From: Pseudoxanthomonas sp. PXM02
GTDB lineage: Bacteria > Pseudomonadota > Gammaproteobacteria > Xanthomonadales > Xanthomonadaceae
Assembly (NCBI RefSeq): GCF_014851805.1
Contig: NZ_JACVAK010000001.1
Span: 1,426,001-1,490,000, forward strand
Direction of reading: 5' to 3'
DNA: 64,000 nucleotides
Part shown: positions 16,035 to 33,946 of the stretch, one piece after another
How positions within the stretch are numbered: the first letter of the stretch is position 1
How the letters are laid out: each line of letters opens with the position of its first letter
Position numbers and translations under genes: made by a program
The notes under the pieces: generated by a model
What the model saw: the letters and a program-made list of their open reading frames with translations, nothing else
Database searches by the model: none
Told to the model about the DNA's origin: nothing

Positions 16035-16891
16035 TCGATGTTCTGCGCCTGTTCGCGGATCTGGTCGATCAGCACCTTCAGTTCCACCGCGATGTTGGTG
16101 GTGCGGATGTCGACGGACTTGGAACCCAGGGTGTTCGCCTCGCGGTTGAACTCCTGCAGCAGGAAGTCCAGCCGGCGGCCCTGCGGTTCCTTCTGGGTGA
16201 AGACGCGACGGATCTCCTTGACGTGGCTGTCGAGGCGGTCGAGCTCCTCGTCCACGTCCAGCTTCTGCAGCCACAGCACCAGTTCCTGCTCCAGCCGGCC
16301 CTGTTCCATGTTCTGCGCCACGTCGGCCATGCGCGCTTCGAGCTTCTGCCGCTGGCCGGCGCGGATCTGCGGGATCAGCGTGCGCACCTCCGCCGCGAGC
16401 GCGGCGATGCCGTCCACGCGCTCCAGGATCGCCGCCACCAGCTTGGCACCCTCGCGCTCACGCCCGGCGACGAACTGGTCGAGCACGGCGTCCAGCAACG
16501 CCAGCGCCTCGGCCTGCAGCGCCTCCATGTCCACGCCCTTGCTCTGCAGCACGCCGGGGAACTGCAGCAGGTCGGTCAGCTCGGTGCGCAGGTTGGGCAG
16601 GCGCGCGGACAGGTCCTGCGCCAGTTCGGACAGCTGCGCCACCACACGGGGATTCAACTGCAGCGCGCCGCCGCCTTCGGGCGCGCGCAGGCGCAGGGTC
16701 AGGTCCAGCTTGCCGCGCGACACGCGCGAGGCCACGCGCTCGCGCAGCGCCGGTTCCAGCACGCGCAGTTCGTCCGGCAGGCGCACGCCCAGTTCCAGGA
16801 AGCGGTGGTTGACTGCGCGCAGTTCGGCCGCCAGCGTGCCGCCGTCGGTGGCGCGTTCGGCGGTAGCGAACGCCGTCATGCTGCGGATCAT
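16031..16891 (-). CDS. YicC/YloC-family endoribonuclease
   Basis: A 286-residue protein of the YicC/YloC family, whose members have been shown to act as endoribonucleases. It starts MIRSMTAFA, the typical start of the family, has NHRFLELGVRLPDELR near residue 35, and ends with the conserved EVNTLGSKS-type block (EANTLGSKSVDIRTTNIAVELK). An ATG four codons upstream is possible. It overlaps gmk by 4 bp and is divergent from rph; pairing with gmk and closeness to rph are common in proteobacteria, in keeping with RNA metabolism. Confidence 0.92.
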   Translation of the reverse strand: MIRSMTAFATAERATDGGTLAAELRAVNHRFLELGVRLPDELRVLEPALRERVASRVSRGKLDLTLRLRAPEGGGALQLNPRVVAQLSELAQDLSARLPNLRTELTDLLQFPGVLQSKGVDMEALQAEALALLDAVLDQFVAGREREGAKLVAAILERVDGIAALAAEVRTLIPQIRAGQRQKLEARMADVAQNMEQGRLEQELVLWLQKLDVDEELDRLDSHVKEIRRVFTQKEPQGRRLDFLLQEFNREANTLGSKSVDIRTTNIAVELKVLIDQIREQAQNIE

Positions 16892-24281: not shown

Positions 24282-24809
24282 TCATCCCTCACCGACAAGC
24301 GAGCTCCGATCCACCTGCGCCGCCCAGTCCATCGACATCACGCCGGATCGAATGTGGCGGTGGATGGAGCTGTACGGCCAATCCGACGCACGCACAACAT
24401 GACCATGCTTCACCGGATTGATGTGCACATAGTCCACATGATGCCCAAGATCGGCTTTGTCGACGATCAGGTGTTCCCAGAACCGGCGCTGCCATAACCC
24501 GCGCTCGCCCTTGCGAAGACGCGTGGCGCTTATCCGCTCTCCCTTTGGAACGGCGCGCGAGAACCCGGCCTTGATCAACATCCAGCGGGTAGCGCAGTCG
24601 CCGTCACCTTCGGGCAGCGTCCAGACCGCATGCAGATGGTCTGGCAGCACGACCCACGCCACGATATCGAAGGGATGCCGTCGCTTGACGGTGCGAACCG
24701 CATTGCGCAGATCATCGATGCGATCCACGAGCAAGGTGCTGGAACGATCAGCGAGGTTGACGGTAAAGAAATACGTGCCGCCTTCCTGGCGGGTGCGTCG
24801 ATAGTCCAT
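24282..24809 (-). CDS. REP-associated tyrosine transposase (RAYT), Y1/IS200-like
   Basis: A 175-residue single-strand DNA transposase of the REP-associated group. The HUH-type metal motif is H58-L-H60 in LPDHLHAVWTLP, and the likely catalytic Tyr is Y127 in HHVDYVHINPVKHG. Length and the YVHINPVKHG signature are typical of RAYTs, which are vertically kept, single-copy genes thought to spread REP palindromes. Inverted REPs lie 2 bp after the stop and 19 bp before the start, a normal layout. No target duplication or extra cargo is seen. Confidence 0.92.
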   Translation of the reverse strand: MDYRRTRQEGGTYFFTVNLADRSSTLLVDRIDDLRNAVRTVKRRHPFDIVAWVVLPDHLHAVWTLPEGDGDCATRWMLIKAGFSRAVPKGERISATRLRKGERGLWQRRFWEHLIVDKADLGHHVDYVHINPVKHGHVVRASDWPYSSIHRHIRSGVMSMDWAAQVDRSSLVGEG

Positions 24810-26893: not shown

Positions 26894-27270
26894 ACGACTG
26901 CCCCGTGTGTTGCGGCCCGCTGAGCCGCATCGAGGTGGCGCCCTGCTTCGACTGCGGGCATGTCCCTCGCGAGCTGGACGAGTGCCGGCGTGGTGAGCAC
27001 GAGTACCACGTGTTCGAATTGTGGGGCCGCGAGCTGGTGCTCTGCGATTTCTGCGATGCGGATTTCGGTTCCTACCTCCCCGATTACTGGGGCCTGCCCG
27101 CAGGACCCCTGCCCGATTACCCGTTGCAGCTGATCCGACGGGTCGCGCACCCGTACATCGCCCAGGACCTGTACTGCGCGGCCTGCCGGAAGCGCCTGGC
27201 CTTCCTCCTGTTCCGGCATCATGCGCTGGCGCGGAACGCCGGCGAACCCTCCTCCAGGACGCTCCCATGA
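26890..27270 (+). CDS. Cys-rich (zinc-ribbon-like) protein of unknown function
   Basis: A 126-residue soluble protein with four cysteine pairs: CPVC at 4-7, CFDC near 19-22, CDFC near 52-55, and CAAC near 97-100. Two zinc ribbons are likely. Between them is YWGLPAGPLPDYPLQLIRRV. Start GTG at 26890 within GTGA overlaps the previous stop, and its own stop overlaps the YciI gene, so it is embedded in a coupled chain. Similar short Cys-rich ORFs occur in xanthomonads without function. Confidence 0.6.
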   Translation: MNDCPVCCGPLSRIEVAPCFDCGHVPRELDECRRGEHEYHVFELWGRELVLCDFCDADFGSYLPDYWGLPAGPLPDYPLQLIRRVAHPYIAQDLYCAACRKRLAFLLFRHHALARNAGEPSSRTLP

Positions 27271-27662
27271 CAACCTCCGACTACCTCCTCATCTCCCGCG
27301 GCCAGTGGGACGAATCGGCCTCGAAGGAAGACGTGCAGGACGCGATCGACCGTTTCTACGTCTGGTACGAGCAAGGGCTGGCCGACGGTGTGCTGAAGCC
27401 CGGCAGCCGGCTGGAGCACCGCGGCAAGCAGGTGTCGCGCAGCGGGATCACCGACGGACCGTTCGCCGAGGCGAAGGAGCTGGTGGGCGGCTACTGGTTC
27501 ATCGTCGCCGACTCGCTGGACCACGCCGCGCAGATCGCCGCGCAGAATCCCTGCCTCGCGTTCGGCCTGACGCTGGAGATCCGTCCGCTGGAAGCCGCAC
27601 GGGCGCGCGCGGAAGTCGTCACCAACGAAACGCCGGCGGCGTGGCGTGCTGACGCCGGCTGA
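27267..27662 (+). CDS. YciI-like (YCII/DGPF domain) protein
   Basis: A 131-residue protein of the YCII/DGPF superfamily. The DGPF-like core is visible in SGITDGPFAEAKELVGGYWFI, and a dimeric ferredoxin-like fold is expected. Members related to this type are often encoded beside ECF41-type sigma factors; none is adjacent here. Start ATG overlaps the previous stop. Function is not established. Confidence 0.82.
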   Translation: MTTSDYLLISRGQWDESASKEDVQDAIDRFYVWYEQGLADGVLKPGSRLEHRGKQVSRSGITDGPFAEAKELVGGYWFIVADSLDHAAQIAAQNPCLAFGLTLEIRPLEAARARAEVVTNETPAAWRADAG

Positions 27663-27671
27663 GCCGCGTCG

Positions 27672-28112
27672 ATGACGGCCGGGATTCCGCTGCTGGAAGG
27701 CGGTTGCCACTGCGGCGCGATCACCCTCGCCTTCTCCACTGCGCTTGTGCCCGCGTCTACGGCGGCGCGCGCCTGCGATTGCAGCTTCTGCCGTGCGCAT
27801 GGGGCCGCCTGGCTGTCGGACGCGAACGCGAACGCGCAGTTGATCGTCCACGCCCACCGTCCGGAGCATCTTCGGCGCTACCGGCAGGGATCGGAGACCG
27901 CACAGTTCCTGCTGTGCGGCGCGTGCGGCGTGCTGGTGGCGGTCGTGTTCGACGAGGACGGCGACACGTACGCGGCCGTCAACGCCGGATGCCTGGCCGC
28001 GCGCGAGACGTTCGCGCCCGCCGTGACCGCCTCGCCGCAGACGCTGGCGCCGGCTGAAAAGACGGCGCGGTGGCGGCAGCTGTGGATTCGCGACGTGCAG
28101 ATACAGGCGTGA
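27672..28112 (+). CDS. GFA-family (glutathione-dependent formaldehyde-activating-like) protein
   Basis: A 146-residue protein with the zinc-binding layout of the GFA fold: GGCHCGAITL with C12 and C14, a CDCSFCRAHG cluster at about 35-40, and LCGACGVLV near 77-80. The founding member was thought to catalyse S-hydroxymethylglutathione formation, but most homologues are uncharacterised. It ends the run of short plus-strand genes; the 513 bp after it contain no gene. Confidence 0.88.
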   Translation: MTAGIPLLEGGCHCGAITLAFSTALVPASTAARACDCSFCRAHGAAWLSDANANAQLIVHAHRPEHLRRYRQGSETAQFLLCGACGVLVAVVFDEDGDTYAAVNAGCLAARETFAPAVTASPQTLAPAEKTARWRQLWIRDVQIQA

Positions 28113-28167
28113 GTGGCGCCGCCTGACGCGTCGCAAGGTTCCGATTCCCTACCTCCGACCGCGGACA

Positions 28168-28570
28168 CTCGCGCGCAAGGCGTCGAGGCTTGCGCGCAAG
28201 CATGAAGGTGAGACACGCAAGCGGCCGAACCTTGTCGGCTCAAGCCGTCAGGAGTGGCGCGCGGGTATGGGCGCCTTGCGGGCAAGCCCCGGCGCCTTGT
28301 GCGCAACCCTCCGTCAATCGGGCGCAAGTCTTTCCGCCTTGCGCGCAACACGGTGGAACCCCGCGCGCAAGGCGTTACGTGTCGCGCGCAAGGTGCGCCC
28401 GTCTCGCGTGTCGGATGCCGAGGCTTGCGCGCACGTCTCAATGTGAGAGAGGCGAGCCTCCGCGTCTTGTGCGCAAGGCGCAGAGACTTGCGCGCAAGAT
28501 CGATCGGCTTGCGTCCGGGCTGCGCAGGCTTGTCAGCCGCCCTGCCCGGGTCGCCGCCGGTGCGTGTCAC
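28168..28570. repeat. Array of imperfect palindromes with a 21-bp period
   Basis: The gap 28113-28625 between the GFA gene and pepP is filled by about 19 units of 21 bp. Each unit carries a version of the 12-bp palindrome CTTGCGCGCAAG followed by a variable 9-bp stretch. Perfect copies are at 28189 and 28487; copies with one mismatch are at 28168, 28275, 28338, 28424 and 28466; other units are more decayed (such as 28317, 28381, 28508). Unit starts fall at 28168, 28189, 28210, 28231, then after a 2-bp shift 28275, 28296, 28317, 28338, then a 1-bp shift 28360, 28381, then 28424, 28445, 28466, 28487, 28508, 28529, 28550. Because 21 is a multiple of three, several frames stay open, but no coding case is convincing. 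Confidence 0.88.
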
Positions 28571-28625
28571 TCCCCCTCTGGCACCGACCGATACAGCGCG
28601 CGCGCATCCGGAACCGACGGAAGGG

Positions 28626-29951
28626 TCAACCCGCCGCCATCGCCGCTTCGATCTCGTCGGCGCTGCGCGCCAGTGCATCGGTCAGCACCACCGGCTCGCC
28701 GGCGGTGACCAGCACGTCGTCTTCGGTGCGGATGCCGATGCCGCGCCACTTCACATCGACGGTGTCGTCGTCGTGGCCGATGTAGAGGCCGGGCTCGATG
28801 GTGAACACCATGCCGGCTTCCAGCAGGCGCGATTCGCCGTCGATCCGGTAGTCGCCCACGTCGTGCACGTCCAGGCCCAGCCAGTGGCCGGTCTTGTGGC
28901 GGTAGAAGCGGCGGTAGGTGCCTTCGGCAAGGTTCTTTTCCAGCCTGCCCTTCAGCAGGCCGAGCCTGAGCAGGCCTTCGGTCAGCGTCTCGACGGCGGC
29001 CACGTGGCCGGCTTCGTACGGCACGCCAACGCGTGCACAGGACAGGGCGGCCTTCTGCGCTTCACCGACGAGGTCGTGCAGCGCCCGCTGCGCAGGGGTG
29101 AAGCGGCCGTTGACCGGGAACGTGCGGGTGATGTCGGCCGCATAGCCGCGGTATTCGGCACCGGCATCGATCAGCACCAGTTCGCCGTCGCGCGCCTGCG
29201 CGGTGTTGGCGCGGTAATGCAGCACGCAGGCGTTGTGGCCGGCGCCGACGATGCTGTTGTACGCCGGCCACGCGTCATTGGCGCGGAACACGCGCTCCAG
29301 GTCGGCCTGCAGTTCGTACTCGCGGATGCCGGGGCGGGCCGCGCGCATGGCGGCGCGATGCGCATCGACACTGATGTCGGCGGCGCGCTGCATCAGCTTG
29401 ATCTCGTCCTTCGACTTGAACAGGCGCAGGTCGTGCAGCAGGTGGCCGAGTTCGAGGAATTCGTGCGGCGGCTGCGCGCCCTGCTTCACGTGCGCGCGCA
29501 CGTGGCGCACCCAGCCGATCAGCTTGAGGTCGAAGTCGGCATCGCGGCCGAAGTGGTAGTAGACGCGCGAGCGGCCTTCCAGCAGGCCGGGCAGGATCTC
29601 GTCCAGGTCGTCGATGGGATAGGCGTCGTCCATCCCGTAGTCGTTGACGGCGCCGTCCTGGCCGGCGCGCGGACCGTCCCAGCCTTCGCGCTCGGGGTCG
29701 CGTTCGCGGCAGAACAGGATGGTCTCGCCGTGCTTGCGGCCGGGCACCAGCACCAGCACCGCGTCCGGCTCGGGAAAGCCGCTGAGGTACCAGAAGTCCG
29801 AGTCCTGCCGGTACGGATAGTGCGTGTCGTGGCTGCGCACGCGCTCGGCGGCGGCCGGCAGCACCAGGATCGCGTCGTTGCCGGCCAGGCGCATCAGTTG
29901 CTTGCGGCGGCGGGCGAACTCCGCGGCGCTGATGCCGGCGACGGCCTTCAT
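28626..29951 (-). CDS. pepP: Xaa-Pro aminopeptidase
   Basis: A 441-residue M24 aminopeptidase P that removes N-terminal residues before proline. Metal-binding landmarks are LVLIDAGAEYRGYAADITRTF, HKTGHWLGLDVHD, FTIEPGLYIG and GIGIRTEDDVLV. The N-terminal creatinase-like domain has YRQDSDFWYLSGFPEPDAV. Start ATG 29951 overlaps the YgfB-like stop by one base (TGATG), giving coupling. The ygfB-pepP order matches E. coli, where ubiH follows; here ubiH is missing and the 21-bp array comes next. Confidence 0.95.
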   Translation of the reverse strand: MKAVAGISAAEFARRRKQLMRLAGNDAILVLPAAAERVRSHDTHYPYRQDSDFWYLSGFPEPDAVLVLVPGRKHGETILFCRERDPEREGWDGPRAGQDGAVNDYGMDDAYPIDDLDEILPGLLEGRSRVYYHFGRDADFDLKLIGWVRHVRAHVKQGAQPPHEFLELGHLLHDLRLFKSKDEIKLMQRAADISVDAHRAAMRAARPGIREYELQADLERVFRANDAWPAYNSIVGAGHNACVLHYRANTAQARDGELVLIDAGAEYRGYAADITRTFPVNGRFTPAQRALHDLVGEAQKAALSCARVGVPYEAGHVAAVETLTEGLLRLGLLKGRLEKNLAEGTYRRFYRHKTGHWLGLDVHDVGDYRIDGESRLLEAGMVFTIEPGLYIGHDDDTVDVKWRGIGIRTEDDVLVTAGEPVVLTDALARSADEIEAAMAAG

Positions 29952-30493
29952 CAGTTCAGGCTCCGGCGGTGCCGGGGCCCGAGCACGCAATCGCCATGGA
30001 GCAGCAGGACGGCGACGCGGACGAACTCTTCCAGTTCGGCCAGTGCGTCCTCGTCTTCCTCATCGTCGCTGCTCTCGGCCGAGGCCTGCGCCAACCGCGC
30101 CAGATCCTGCAGCGCTTCCTGGCCTTCCTCGGACAGCGGCGGCGATGCACCCGCGGCGAGTCCGAAGGCGCCCAGGAATCCCTGGCACCAGCCGAACAGC
30201 GCTTCGGCACGCTCGTCGAGCGGACGGTCGGCCGCAGGCAGCAGCAGGTCGAAGGCGAAGCTGCGGTCTTCCAGCTGGGCGACGGCACACGCACGCAGTT
30301 GGTCCAGCGCACTGCCTGCCGCAGGCGCGGGCAGCTGGTCGTCGGCCAGCGCGCGGGCCAGCCAGGTGTCGTCGGCAGTGCCGCCGCCGGCCAGCCAGCC
30401 GCACAGCGCGCCGTGCAGTTCCGAGGCGTCCATGGCCAGGCCGAGCTGGCGGGAAGCGGCCGCCACGTCGGCGATATCGGGAAGGTCGGGCAT
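29951..30493 (-). CDS. YgfB/YecA (UPF0149) family protein
   Basis: A 180-residue protein of the UPF0149 family. Typical sequence: ASELHGALCGWLAGGG near the N-terminus, PLDERAEALFGWCQGFLGAFG in the middle, and an acidic C-terminus with EEDEDALAELEEFVRVAVLL. Its E. coli and Pseudomonas relatives sit upstream of pepP; the Pseudomonas one has been linked to regulation of a beta-lactamase regulator. Start ATG 30493 is chosen because the preceding frame is not family-like. It is coupled to pepP by a 1-bp overlap. Confidence 0.9.
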   Translation of the reverse strand: MPDLPDIADVAAASRQLGLAMDASELHGALCGWLAGGGTADDTWLARALADDQLPAPAAGSALDQLRACAVAQLEDRSFAFDLLLPAADRPLDERAEALFGWCQGFLGAFGLAAGASPPLSEEGQEALQDLARLAQASAESSDDEEDEDALAELEEFVRVAVLLLHGDCVLGPRHRRSLN

Positions 30494-33585: not shown

Positions 33586-33593
33586 GGCCCTGC

Positions 33594-33776
33594 GTCCTCT
33601 GCTGTACTCGACAGTGAGCGCAAACATTCGCCTTGTCCCTTAATGACGACCACGGGATGGTGACGTAACCGGGAGTGCAGGTCTGCCTCGCAGCGGAAAG
33701 CCCGATGGTTGCCCAACCTTCCCACTTGAACCCCGGGTTCAAGGTCGTTTCGCGAACATCGTGCATGGCGGAGGAC
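33594..33776 (+). ncRNA. ssrS: 6S RNA
   Basis: A 183-nt RNA between zapA and ygfA. The ends pair (GUCCUCUGC with GCGGAGGAC, one G-U), giving the closing stem. The conserved internal segment CTTGAACCCCGGGTTCAAGG (33725-33744) matches the well known 6S hairpin near the 3' side of the bubble. Length is near the E. coli 184 nt. 6S RNA mimics an open promoter and sequesters housekeeping RNA polymerase in stationary phase. A T-run lies just after the 3' end at 33779-33785. Exact ends are within a few bases. Confidence 0.93.
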
Positions 33777-33946
33777 GTATTTTTCCCGCGGCAGCGGCAT
33801 CAGCCGCGACCCGGCCGGTCCTGTTGCACCCGCCCTTGAGCGGGATGACTTCGAAACGAAGCCGACTGCACTAGGGATCCGACGCACAGGGCCGTGACTG
33901 ACGCCGCTCCCGCGGTCCCACGCCGGCAACACCGGTGCGCATGCCG

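Follow-up and report, generated by a model that had tools for sequence, protein, structure and literature searches.

The window that we analysed, a 64 kb stretch of Pseudoxanthomonas sp. PXM02 (NZ_JACVAK010000001.1:1,426,001-1,490,000, contig label C4; GCF_014851805.1, genome 4.34 Mb), contains an array of units phased at 21 bp that is real and larger than first noted. It is one of a family of arrays that keep a common register, are strand-symmetric, include a class of interchangeable units (class I), are short of indels and lie between genes, often just past stop codons. A multi-site binding platform, listed in the initial annotation among several possibilities, is now a leading one in view of this phasing, strand symmetry, unit exchangeability and indel shortage. 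Our preferred, still tentative reading is that the array is a lattice of half-sites in helical phase, to which putative two-fold-symmetric DNA-binding proteins would bind.

A phased 21-bp array between two convergent genes

The array extends over 28133-28540, with no strand assigned, and comprises ~19 units of the class I vocabulary (TTGCGCGCAA type), its edges being accurate to about one unit on either side; the true start lies ~35 bp further left than initially placed. It takes up the greater part of the interval between the stop codon (28112) of a gene for a GFA-family protein (27672-28112, plus strand; Pfam GFA, E 3.4e-12), which precedes it by ~20 bp, and the stop codon (28626) of the convergent Xaa-Pro aminopeptidase gene pepP (28626-29951, minus strand; Pfam Peptidase_M24 and AMP_N; start codon uncertain, with the ORF extending to 29990). 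The only Rfam match at gathering score in the whole window is the 6S RNA gene (33593-33778, plus strand; RF00013, 77.6 bits), and the array itself has no match to an RNA family. An ORF resembling a RAYT-type (REP-associated) transposase is found at 24282-24809 on the minus strand, 3.3 kb from the array (Y1_Tnp E 0.01, below the Pfam cut-off).

The 21 bp period withstood a formal autocorrelation: relative to 500 first-order Markov sequences, the region 28131-28560 gave z=5.6 at lag 21, 4.7 at lag 42 and 4.0 at lag 63, and lag 128 was also raised (z=4.6). Taken alone, autocorrelation at lag 21 has no specificity, a coding stretch at 16.1-16.7 kb equalling the score of the array. This stretch (16101-16700) holds a long open frame on the reverse strand, and all lags that are multiples of 3 are elevated there. 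Tandem Repeats Finder (minimum score 40), one of the checks suggested at the outset, returned no entry at 28133-28540. In a search with the consensus CTTGCGCGCAAG, allowing up to 2 mismatches, the window has 16 matches where 10.5 are expected, a mild excess that 4 of 100 shuffles attain; the array accounts for 10 of the 16. Since the motif is only mildly frequent, the improbable feature is the phasing and not the motif.

A cyclic 21-state HMM trained on the window array and three other arrays, its register search seeded with a near-palindromic consensus, laid out the region 28151-28545 as 18 units plus a partial first unit, with one +2 and two +1 steps. The units begin at 28166, 28187, 28208 and 28229 (together 28166-28251), then, after 2 additional bp, at 28252, 28273, 28294, 28315, 28336, 28358 and 28379 (28252-28400), and finally at 28401, 28422, 28443, 28464, 28485, 28506 and 28527 (28401-28540), none of them stranded; the +1 bp insertions lie inside units 28336 and 28379. 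Among the phase shifts described initially, the +2 before 28252 and the +1 before 28358 are thus reproduced, but the third, a +1, falls before 28401 and not near 28422. Two elements sit in the frame of the array, an exact match to the pattern TCTCACATTGAG at 28437-28448 on the minus strand and a degenerate GTGAGA element, GTGAGACACGCA, placed by the cyclic HMM at 28208-28219 on the plus strand. The higher-order resemblance recognised from the beginning is present, 28168-28235 and 28403-28470 being 71% identical. A CRISPR had rightly been dismissed, as the unit is 21 bp with a variable linker of only 5-6 bp. A local HMM run over the 64-kb window found 28133-28500 as the sole segment of at least 40 bases (score 55.9) and none in 60 Markov sequences modelled on 27001-30000, scores that are not independent of the window array because the training set includes it.

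Nine arrays and two unit vocabularies in one genome

Weak BLAST matches of the window array against its own genome group at five further places. R1, a 63-position profile built from ten close genomes, brings the arrays found in this genome to nine when its matches are grouped by hand: 473.5k, 582k, 1454k (the window array) and 1709k on C4, 436k, 561k and 1045k on C5, C6:367k and C8:72.5k. A general model fits all nine into one 21-bp frame; under the first, class I model alone the array at C6:367k had a negative score. Four arrays were assigned to class I (TTGCGCGCAA-like), four to class II (CCATCGATGG-like) and one was mixed, the assignment being made by eye before similarities were calculated.

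Class I units have a similarity of 0.546 within an array, 0.548 to the opposite strand and 0.547 between arrays; they are interchangeable between dispersed arrays and between strands. The corresponding values for class II are 0.537, 0.504 and 0.512, and similarity between the two classes is 0.313. Class I units behave as though sampled from one common weight matrix, which is what trans-acting recognition would predict, and the similarities look as one would expect of sites from a shared recognition matrix, not of recent tandem copies. Maintenance of an array-specific vocabulary by exchange within arrays was considered and rejected for this genome, where the two classes provide the explanation instead. 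A single shared vocabulary is found among the arrays examined in G008 (0.532 within and 0.506 between arrays), G028 (0.521 and 0.518) and G021 (0.542 and 0.539). Similarity between arrays falls below that within arrays in G000 (0.408 against 0.531), G015 (0.408 against 0.479) and G018 (0.493 against 0.601), a divergence resolved into classes for G000 only.

The six exact copies of TCTCACATTGAG in this genome all lie inside arrays. The pattern is exact in 11 of 61 relatives, all from a single genus, the lone copy in G023 lying outside arrays, and its reversed control occurs once among the 61 genomes. Adjoining the C4:582k array, at L049:2336-2480, is an inverted pair of REP-like sequences (GATGGGTTGAGCCGCAGGCGATACCCATC), of a form known from RAYT-linked REPs.

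Anatomy of the unit

Unit structure was derived from 44 arrays, 30 from close Pseudoxanthomonas genomes and G301 and 14 others, with L206 and short segments of G018 and G005 left out. Their median length is 366 bp (range 204-500), and the 704 unit steps measure 21 bp in 591 cases, 22 bp in 93, 23 bp in 16 and 20 bp in 4, with a mean of 21.17. The two dyads (positions 5-9 and 15-19, picked after the counts were seen) take 100 of 125 inserted bases, and the remaining 11 positions take 25. Given this concentration, the bodies of the half-sites look rigid and the linkers flexible.

The palindromic character attributed to the units holds for the profile and less so for the single unit. The profile has two axes of symmetry, at positions 7.5 and 18, about which it coincides with its reverse complement; the pooled correlation of 0.995 is helped by pooling arrays of random orientation. 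For 30 single arrays the correlation of the profile with its own reverse complement averages 0.879 (range 0.593-0.954), compared with 0.694 between arrays. Individual units are not strict palindromes, their halves varying nearly independently: mirror covariation within arrays is weak (z 5.2 for the central pair, 2.3 at 0/15 and between -1.4 and 1.8 at the other pairs; of 280 control pairs, 12.5% have a z above 2 and the highest reaches 7.4), and in this genome the self-complementarity of a unit is slightly above the between-unit value of the same array (0.560 vs 0.515). Because the two halves are almost independent, the elementary unit looks like a ~5-bp half-site that is inverted each helical turn. 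The arrays hold helically phased, two-fold symmetric sites in number, as expected of parS-like or operator arrays.

The symmetry would also be expected of a nucleic-acid structure, in which self-complementary units, either reached by transcription of flanking genes or extruded in supercoiled DNA, pair promiscuously to form a bulky hairpin cluster that might end or insulate transcription or protect mRNA ends. The correlation of 0.88 that single-array profiles reach on average with their own reverse complement (30 arrays) agrees with such pairing, and so does the folding energy, which is better than that of column-shuffled arrays in 22 of 22 cases and on both strands. However, the energy is no better than after unit-order or half-unit shuffling (mean z -0.2 to -0.3, n=20), mirror covariation inside arrays is weak as described, and no intrinsic terminator is visible in the window array. 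We consider this explanation unlikely. One form of it, a specific RNA fold, was rejected since column shuffles are beaten while unit and half-unit shuffles are not.

Over lags 1-8 the similarity of units in the 44 arrays is 0.557, 0.585, 0.557, 0.578, 0.564, 0.577, 0.555 and 0.578, without decay. The decayed tandem repeat initially suggested is therefore disfavoured in its ordinary sense, as unit similarity stays flat with distance. Even lags are slightly higher (lag 2, 0.585 vs lag 1, 0.557), a hint of alternating unit types. A purine/pyrimidine (R/Y) period of 10.5 bp was not seen in the close Pseudoxanthomonas set. An R/Y sub-period of 7 bp is present in these and in the other-genus arrays and absent in G018; it could arise from the placement of a few constrained positions.

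Genomic context and coding potential

The context survey covered 48 loci, of which one had no segment and one was unclassifiable, leaving 46 sites: 29 codirectional, 14 convergent and 3 divergent. Set against 154 gaps of at least 40 bp, drawn from ten stretches and including the array gaps, the sites show an excess of convergent arrangements (14/46 vs 19/154, p=0.006) and no significant depletion of divergent ones (3/46 vs 28/154, p=0.064); these p-values are optimistic since orthologous sites recur in the list. Among the 29 codirectional arrays, 20 start within 56 bp after the upstream stop codon and 21 end 97-173 bp ahead of the next start codon. The proximity to upstream stops and the excess of convergent sites would suit hairpins formed at transcript ends, but in 20 of these 29 arrays the sense strand is less stable than the antisense strand. 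A sense-strand hairpin at mRNA 3′ ends was rejected on account of this lower stability.

The alternative first proposed for the 21 bp period, seven codons of a heptad-repeat protein of the Leu-Ala-Arg-Lys type, fares poorly. It is true that stop codons are scarce in the arrays, with 430 in six frames against 500 expected from first-order Markov sequences and 67 fully open frames against 52 (44 arrays), or 214 stops against 331 and 36 open frames against 16 in column shuffles (24 arrays). Yet in three orthologue pairs the substitutions at the three codon positions number 11/8/3, 21/16/13 and 23/22/15, a distribution in which no frame has the third-position excess of coding sequence, stops interrupt 15 of the 18 frames of three orthologous arrays, and steps of 22, 23 and 20 bp break the frame within arrays. 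Moreover, a called gene overlaps none of 47 arrays by >60 bp. The substitution pattern, the frame-shifting steps and the zero overlap lead us to reject the coding reading, which we regard as extremely improbable, and the array can be called non-coding as originally described.

Evolution of orthologous arrays

At one orthologous site, which adjoins a gene without Pfam match, G015, G008 and G022 form a gapless alignment of 418 bp, of which 338 bp are array, at 77-89% identity. Here 26 of 28 changes at unit positions 0, 3, 5, 8, 9, 10, 12 and 15 are transitions, and positions 4 and 11 (16/16) and 6 (4/4) changed by transversions only, 20 of 20 in total; these positions were picked afterwards, from three orthologues forming three overlapping pairs. 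The transversions at position 6 do not suit a strict purine/pyrimidine rule.

Indels are scarce in the arrays. Three non-overlapping pairs, with a second gene caller, have 3 indels per 176 substitutions in arrays, 41 per 586 in intergenic and 41 per 1401 in coding sequence, an approximately 4-fold shortage relative to intergenic DNA (one-sided Fisher p=0.005), the intergenic control being imperfect since the gene caller misses genes there (coding fraction 0.47-0.83). A first, leaky gene caller gave 5/624 in arrays vs 89/1282 in intergenic sequence for ten overlapping pairs, in which one event is counted several times. The substitution rate itself is similar to that of intergenic sequence and not reduced, divergence being above intergenic in 6 of 10 pairs and below in 4, so that constraint shows itself chiefly in how the units are spaced and in which kinds of change occur.

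This unreduced rate is what one would expect if the arrays were a functionless, old and dispersed repeat family, seeded by unit copying and now drifting, with a low local indel rate and exchange keeping the register. In line with this, 12 of 68 gap runs in array alignments have lengths of 20, 21, 42 or 43 bp, that is one or two units (37 are of 1 bp, 6 of 20-21 bp and 6 of 42-43 bp; the pairs are non-independent). Arrays at the pepP site, judged by eye, are also lacking in some close relatives, present in 8 and empty in 6 of 14 close genomes, and unrelated array types occur at pepP in close genomes. The array of G015 is 0.60 identical to the window array there, while G008 and G030 carry a different type (0.45 identity with that of G015), although fourfold sites of pepP in G015 are 0.93-0.94 identical to both, a comparison that excludes the G027 and G029 pairs (wrong frame). 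At the pepP 3′ end, the loci of G015 and of G008 and G030 (L008, L014, L009) differ in array type and in left neighbours, as would result from recombinational exchange of the flank. At the pepP locus of G036 (L016) we observed, by eye, that the pepP 3′ end is duplicated locally together with its flank, next to a repeat with GTAAGTCGC or GTAAGTCGCG. Mere drift is nevertheless difficult to reconcile with unit similarity that does not decay with distance, with class I units exchangeable between arrays and strands, with restricted types of change and fewer indels than in intergenic sequence, or with other genera sharing the 21-bp register in different letters. We judge it somewhat unlikely.

Substitutions over time also bear on the pairing of self-complementary units. 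Mirror partners co-change more often than partners about four control axes (ratio 1.49-1.56 vs 1.15-1.26), Watson-Crick pairing is restored in 54 of 194 and 45 of 193 double changes as against 10-15 of 99-178 in the controls, and positions limited to transitions suit G-U pairs. The Watson-Crick share of mirror pairs is, on the other hand, only about half (0.533 and 0.489).

Distribution among genomes

At E<=0.001 R1 matches 15 of 61 genomes, comprising 13 of 14 close genomes (this one counted) and G005 and G018 of the same genus, and none of 24 genomes from other families of the order. Since R1 was built from them, matches in its ten source genomes are expected by construction; those in G005, G018, G019, G020, G030, G301 and other genera are not. 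At E<=1e-4, 20 of 297 genomes of the family match, from 6 of 54 genera (five besides its own). A 299-genome sample of the order gave 5 R1 matches, all within the family, and a 369-genome sample of the class gave this genome and one false match. The latter, outside the family in G885 (L219), is a 58-bp stretch resembling coding sequence and was rejected as an array.

When one locus from each of 11 other-genus genomes was inspected, ten proved to be arrays of 204-500 bp with an identical frame and different letters, e.g. GCCTCATCGATGAGGC with a 5-bp linker; the eleventh (L206) covers only 77 bp. Three of the other-genus arrays (L199, L202 and L204) are very regular, with a lag-21 identity of up to 0.84 in L199, and in L204 alternating TTTTT and mostly TCGGA linkers create a 42-bp higher-order unit. 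Searching named genomes for an array-specific pattern yielded six stretches, one in P. mexicana DSM 17121, three in Pseudoxanthomonas sp. PXM03 and one each in two MAGs, the first of Pseudoxanthomonas and the second, on a 3.4-kb contig, of Polyangia. The array family is seemingly undescribed, as our searches of open-access papers turned up none that describes phased 21-bp arrays from Xanthomonadaceae.

The model detected no array in the close relative G014, within a detection limit that lets arrays with other letters escape (at the pepP site the HMM found 4 of 14, and inspection by eye 8 of 14 close genomes). With G014 and the six empty pepP sites, any single array appears to be dispensable. 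This patchiness at orthologous sites, the dispersal of the arrays and their rather even lengths (median 366 bp, range 204-500) would fit a mobile element that inserts after genes and of which the arrays are remnants or cargo. Against this, the arrays of this genome have, by eye, neither common ends nor a common unit order, and a sensitive blastn search of one array against plasmid and phage collections gave no match, which makes a mobile origin quite improbable. The array pattern search gave two matches in viral contigs.

A wider and more doubtful proposal than the binding lattice itself is that the arrays represent a chromosomal element class of several genera of one family in which nothing but the register, the strand symmetry and a loose skeleton of letters has been kept. 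Its vocabularies, at least two in this genome, would each have their own putative trans-acting symmetric protein, specificity changing between genera while the 21-bp lattice stays constant.

A putative docking platform and its relation to known systems

In the binding lattice that we favour, half-sites of ~5 bp would each be inverted relative to the previous one and lie one helical turn away, which would place all of them on the same face of the helix with a repeat of two turns. A two-fold symmetric protein would then dock side by side, perhaps as an oligomer, with one dimer per 21-22 bp, and the two vocabularies of this genome may correspond to two recognition specificities. The cellular role might be to insulate neighbouring transcription units or to organise or mark the chromosome. 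This arrangement explains most of the evidence on the arrays. The unreduced substitution rate, G014, the absent 10.5-bp R/Y period and the transversions at position 6 fit it poorly, as does mirror compensation over time, which pairing also predicts.

Should this reading be right, several genera of one family have docking platforms on their chromosomes that escape both motif searches and repeat finders, because what is kept is the spacing and not the sequence. The platforms would represent a chromosomal, dispersed counterpart of arrays that serve plasmid partition or act as operators, and an example of helical phase being under selection while the sequence drifts almost neutrally. As two vocabularies in one genome provide matched baits, the putative reader proteins should be directly findable by DNA-affinity capture.

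Among the closest parallels are the parS sites of plasmid pSM19035, which consist of 7-10 consecutive 7-bp repeats of which at least 4 contiguous ones are required (PMC9499535). Common to both are contiguous short sites in both orientations, read there by a dimeric protein, the RHH ParB/Omega, and the heptads of parS recall the 7-bp R/Y sub-period of the close Pseudoxanthomonas and other-genus arrays. The parS site is plasmid-borne and its 7-bp consensus repeats overlap promoters, whereas the present arrays are chromosomal (nine found), often follow stop codons and consist of 21-bp units that are ~55% alike.

REPs are palindromes of 20-40 bp, most with a GTAG or CGTC tag at one end (PMC3733652). 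Like REPs, BIMEs and REPINs with their RAYTs, the arrays are dispersed, extragenic and palindromic, and the window array has a weak RAYT-like gene at a distance of 3.3 kb. Their units differ in forming long phased arrays without a constant tag, none of the GTAG/CGTC type being seen by eye in the unit tables. The GGGAATC heptameric repeats of Xanthomonas, a relative of Pseudoxanthomonas, are G-rich simple repeats of 7 nt that could form quadruplexes, in contrast to 21-bp strand-symmetric units with two dyads. Finally, the iterons of plasmid origins are repeats of about two helical turns whose initiator proteins are bound on one face; they are direct, well conserved and confined to the origin. 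The arrays resemble them in the repeat of about two turns and depart from them in units that are inverted each turn, degenerate and dispersed.
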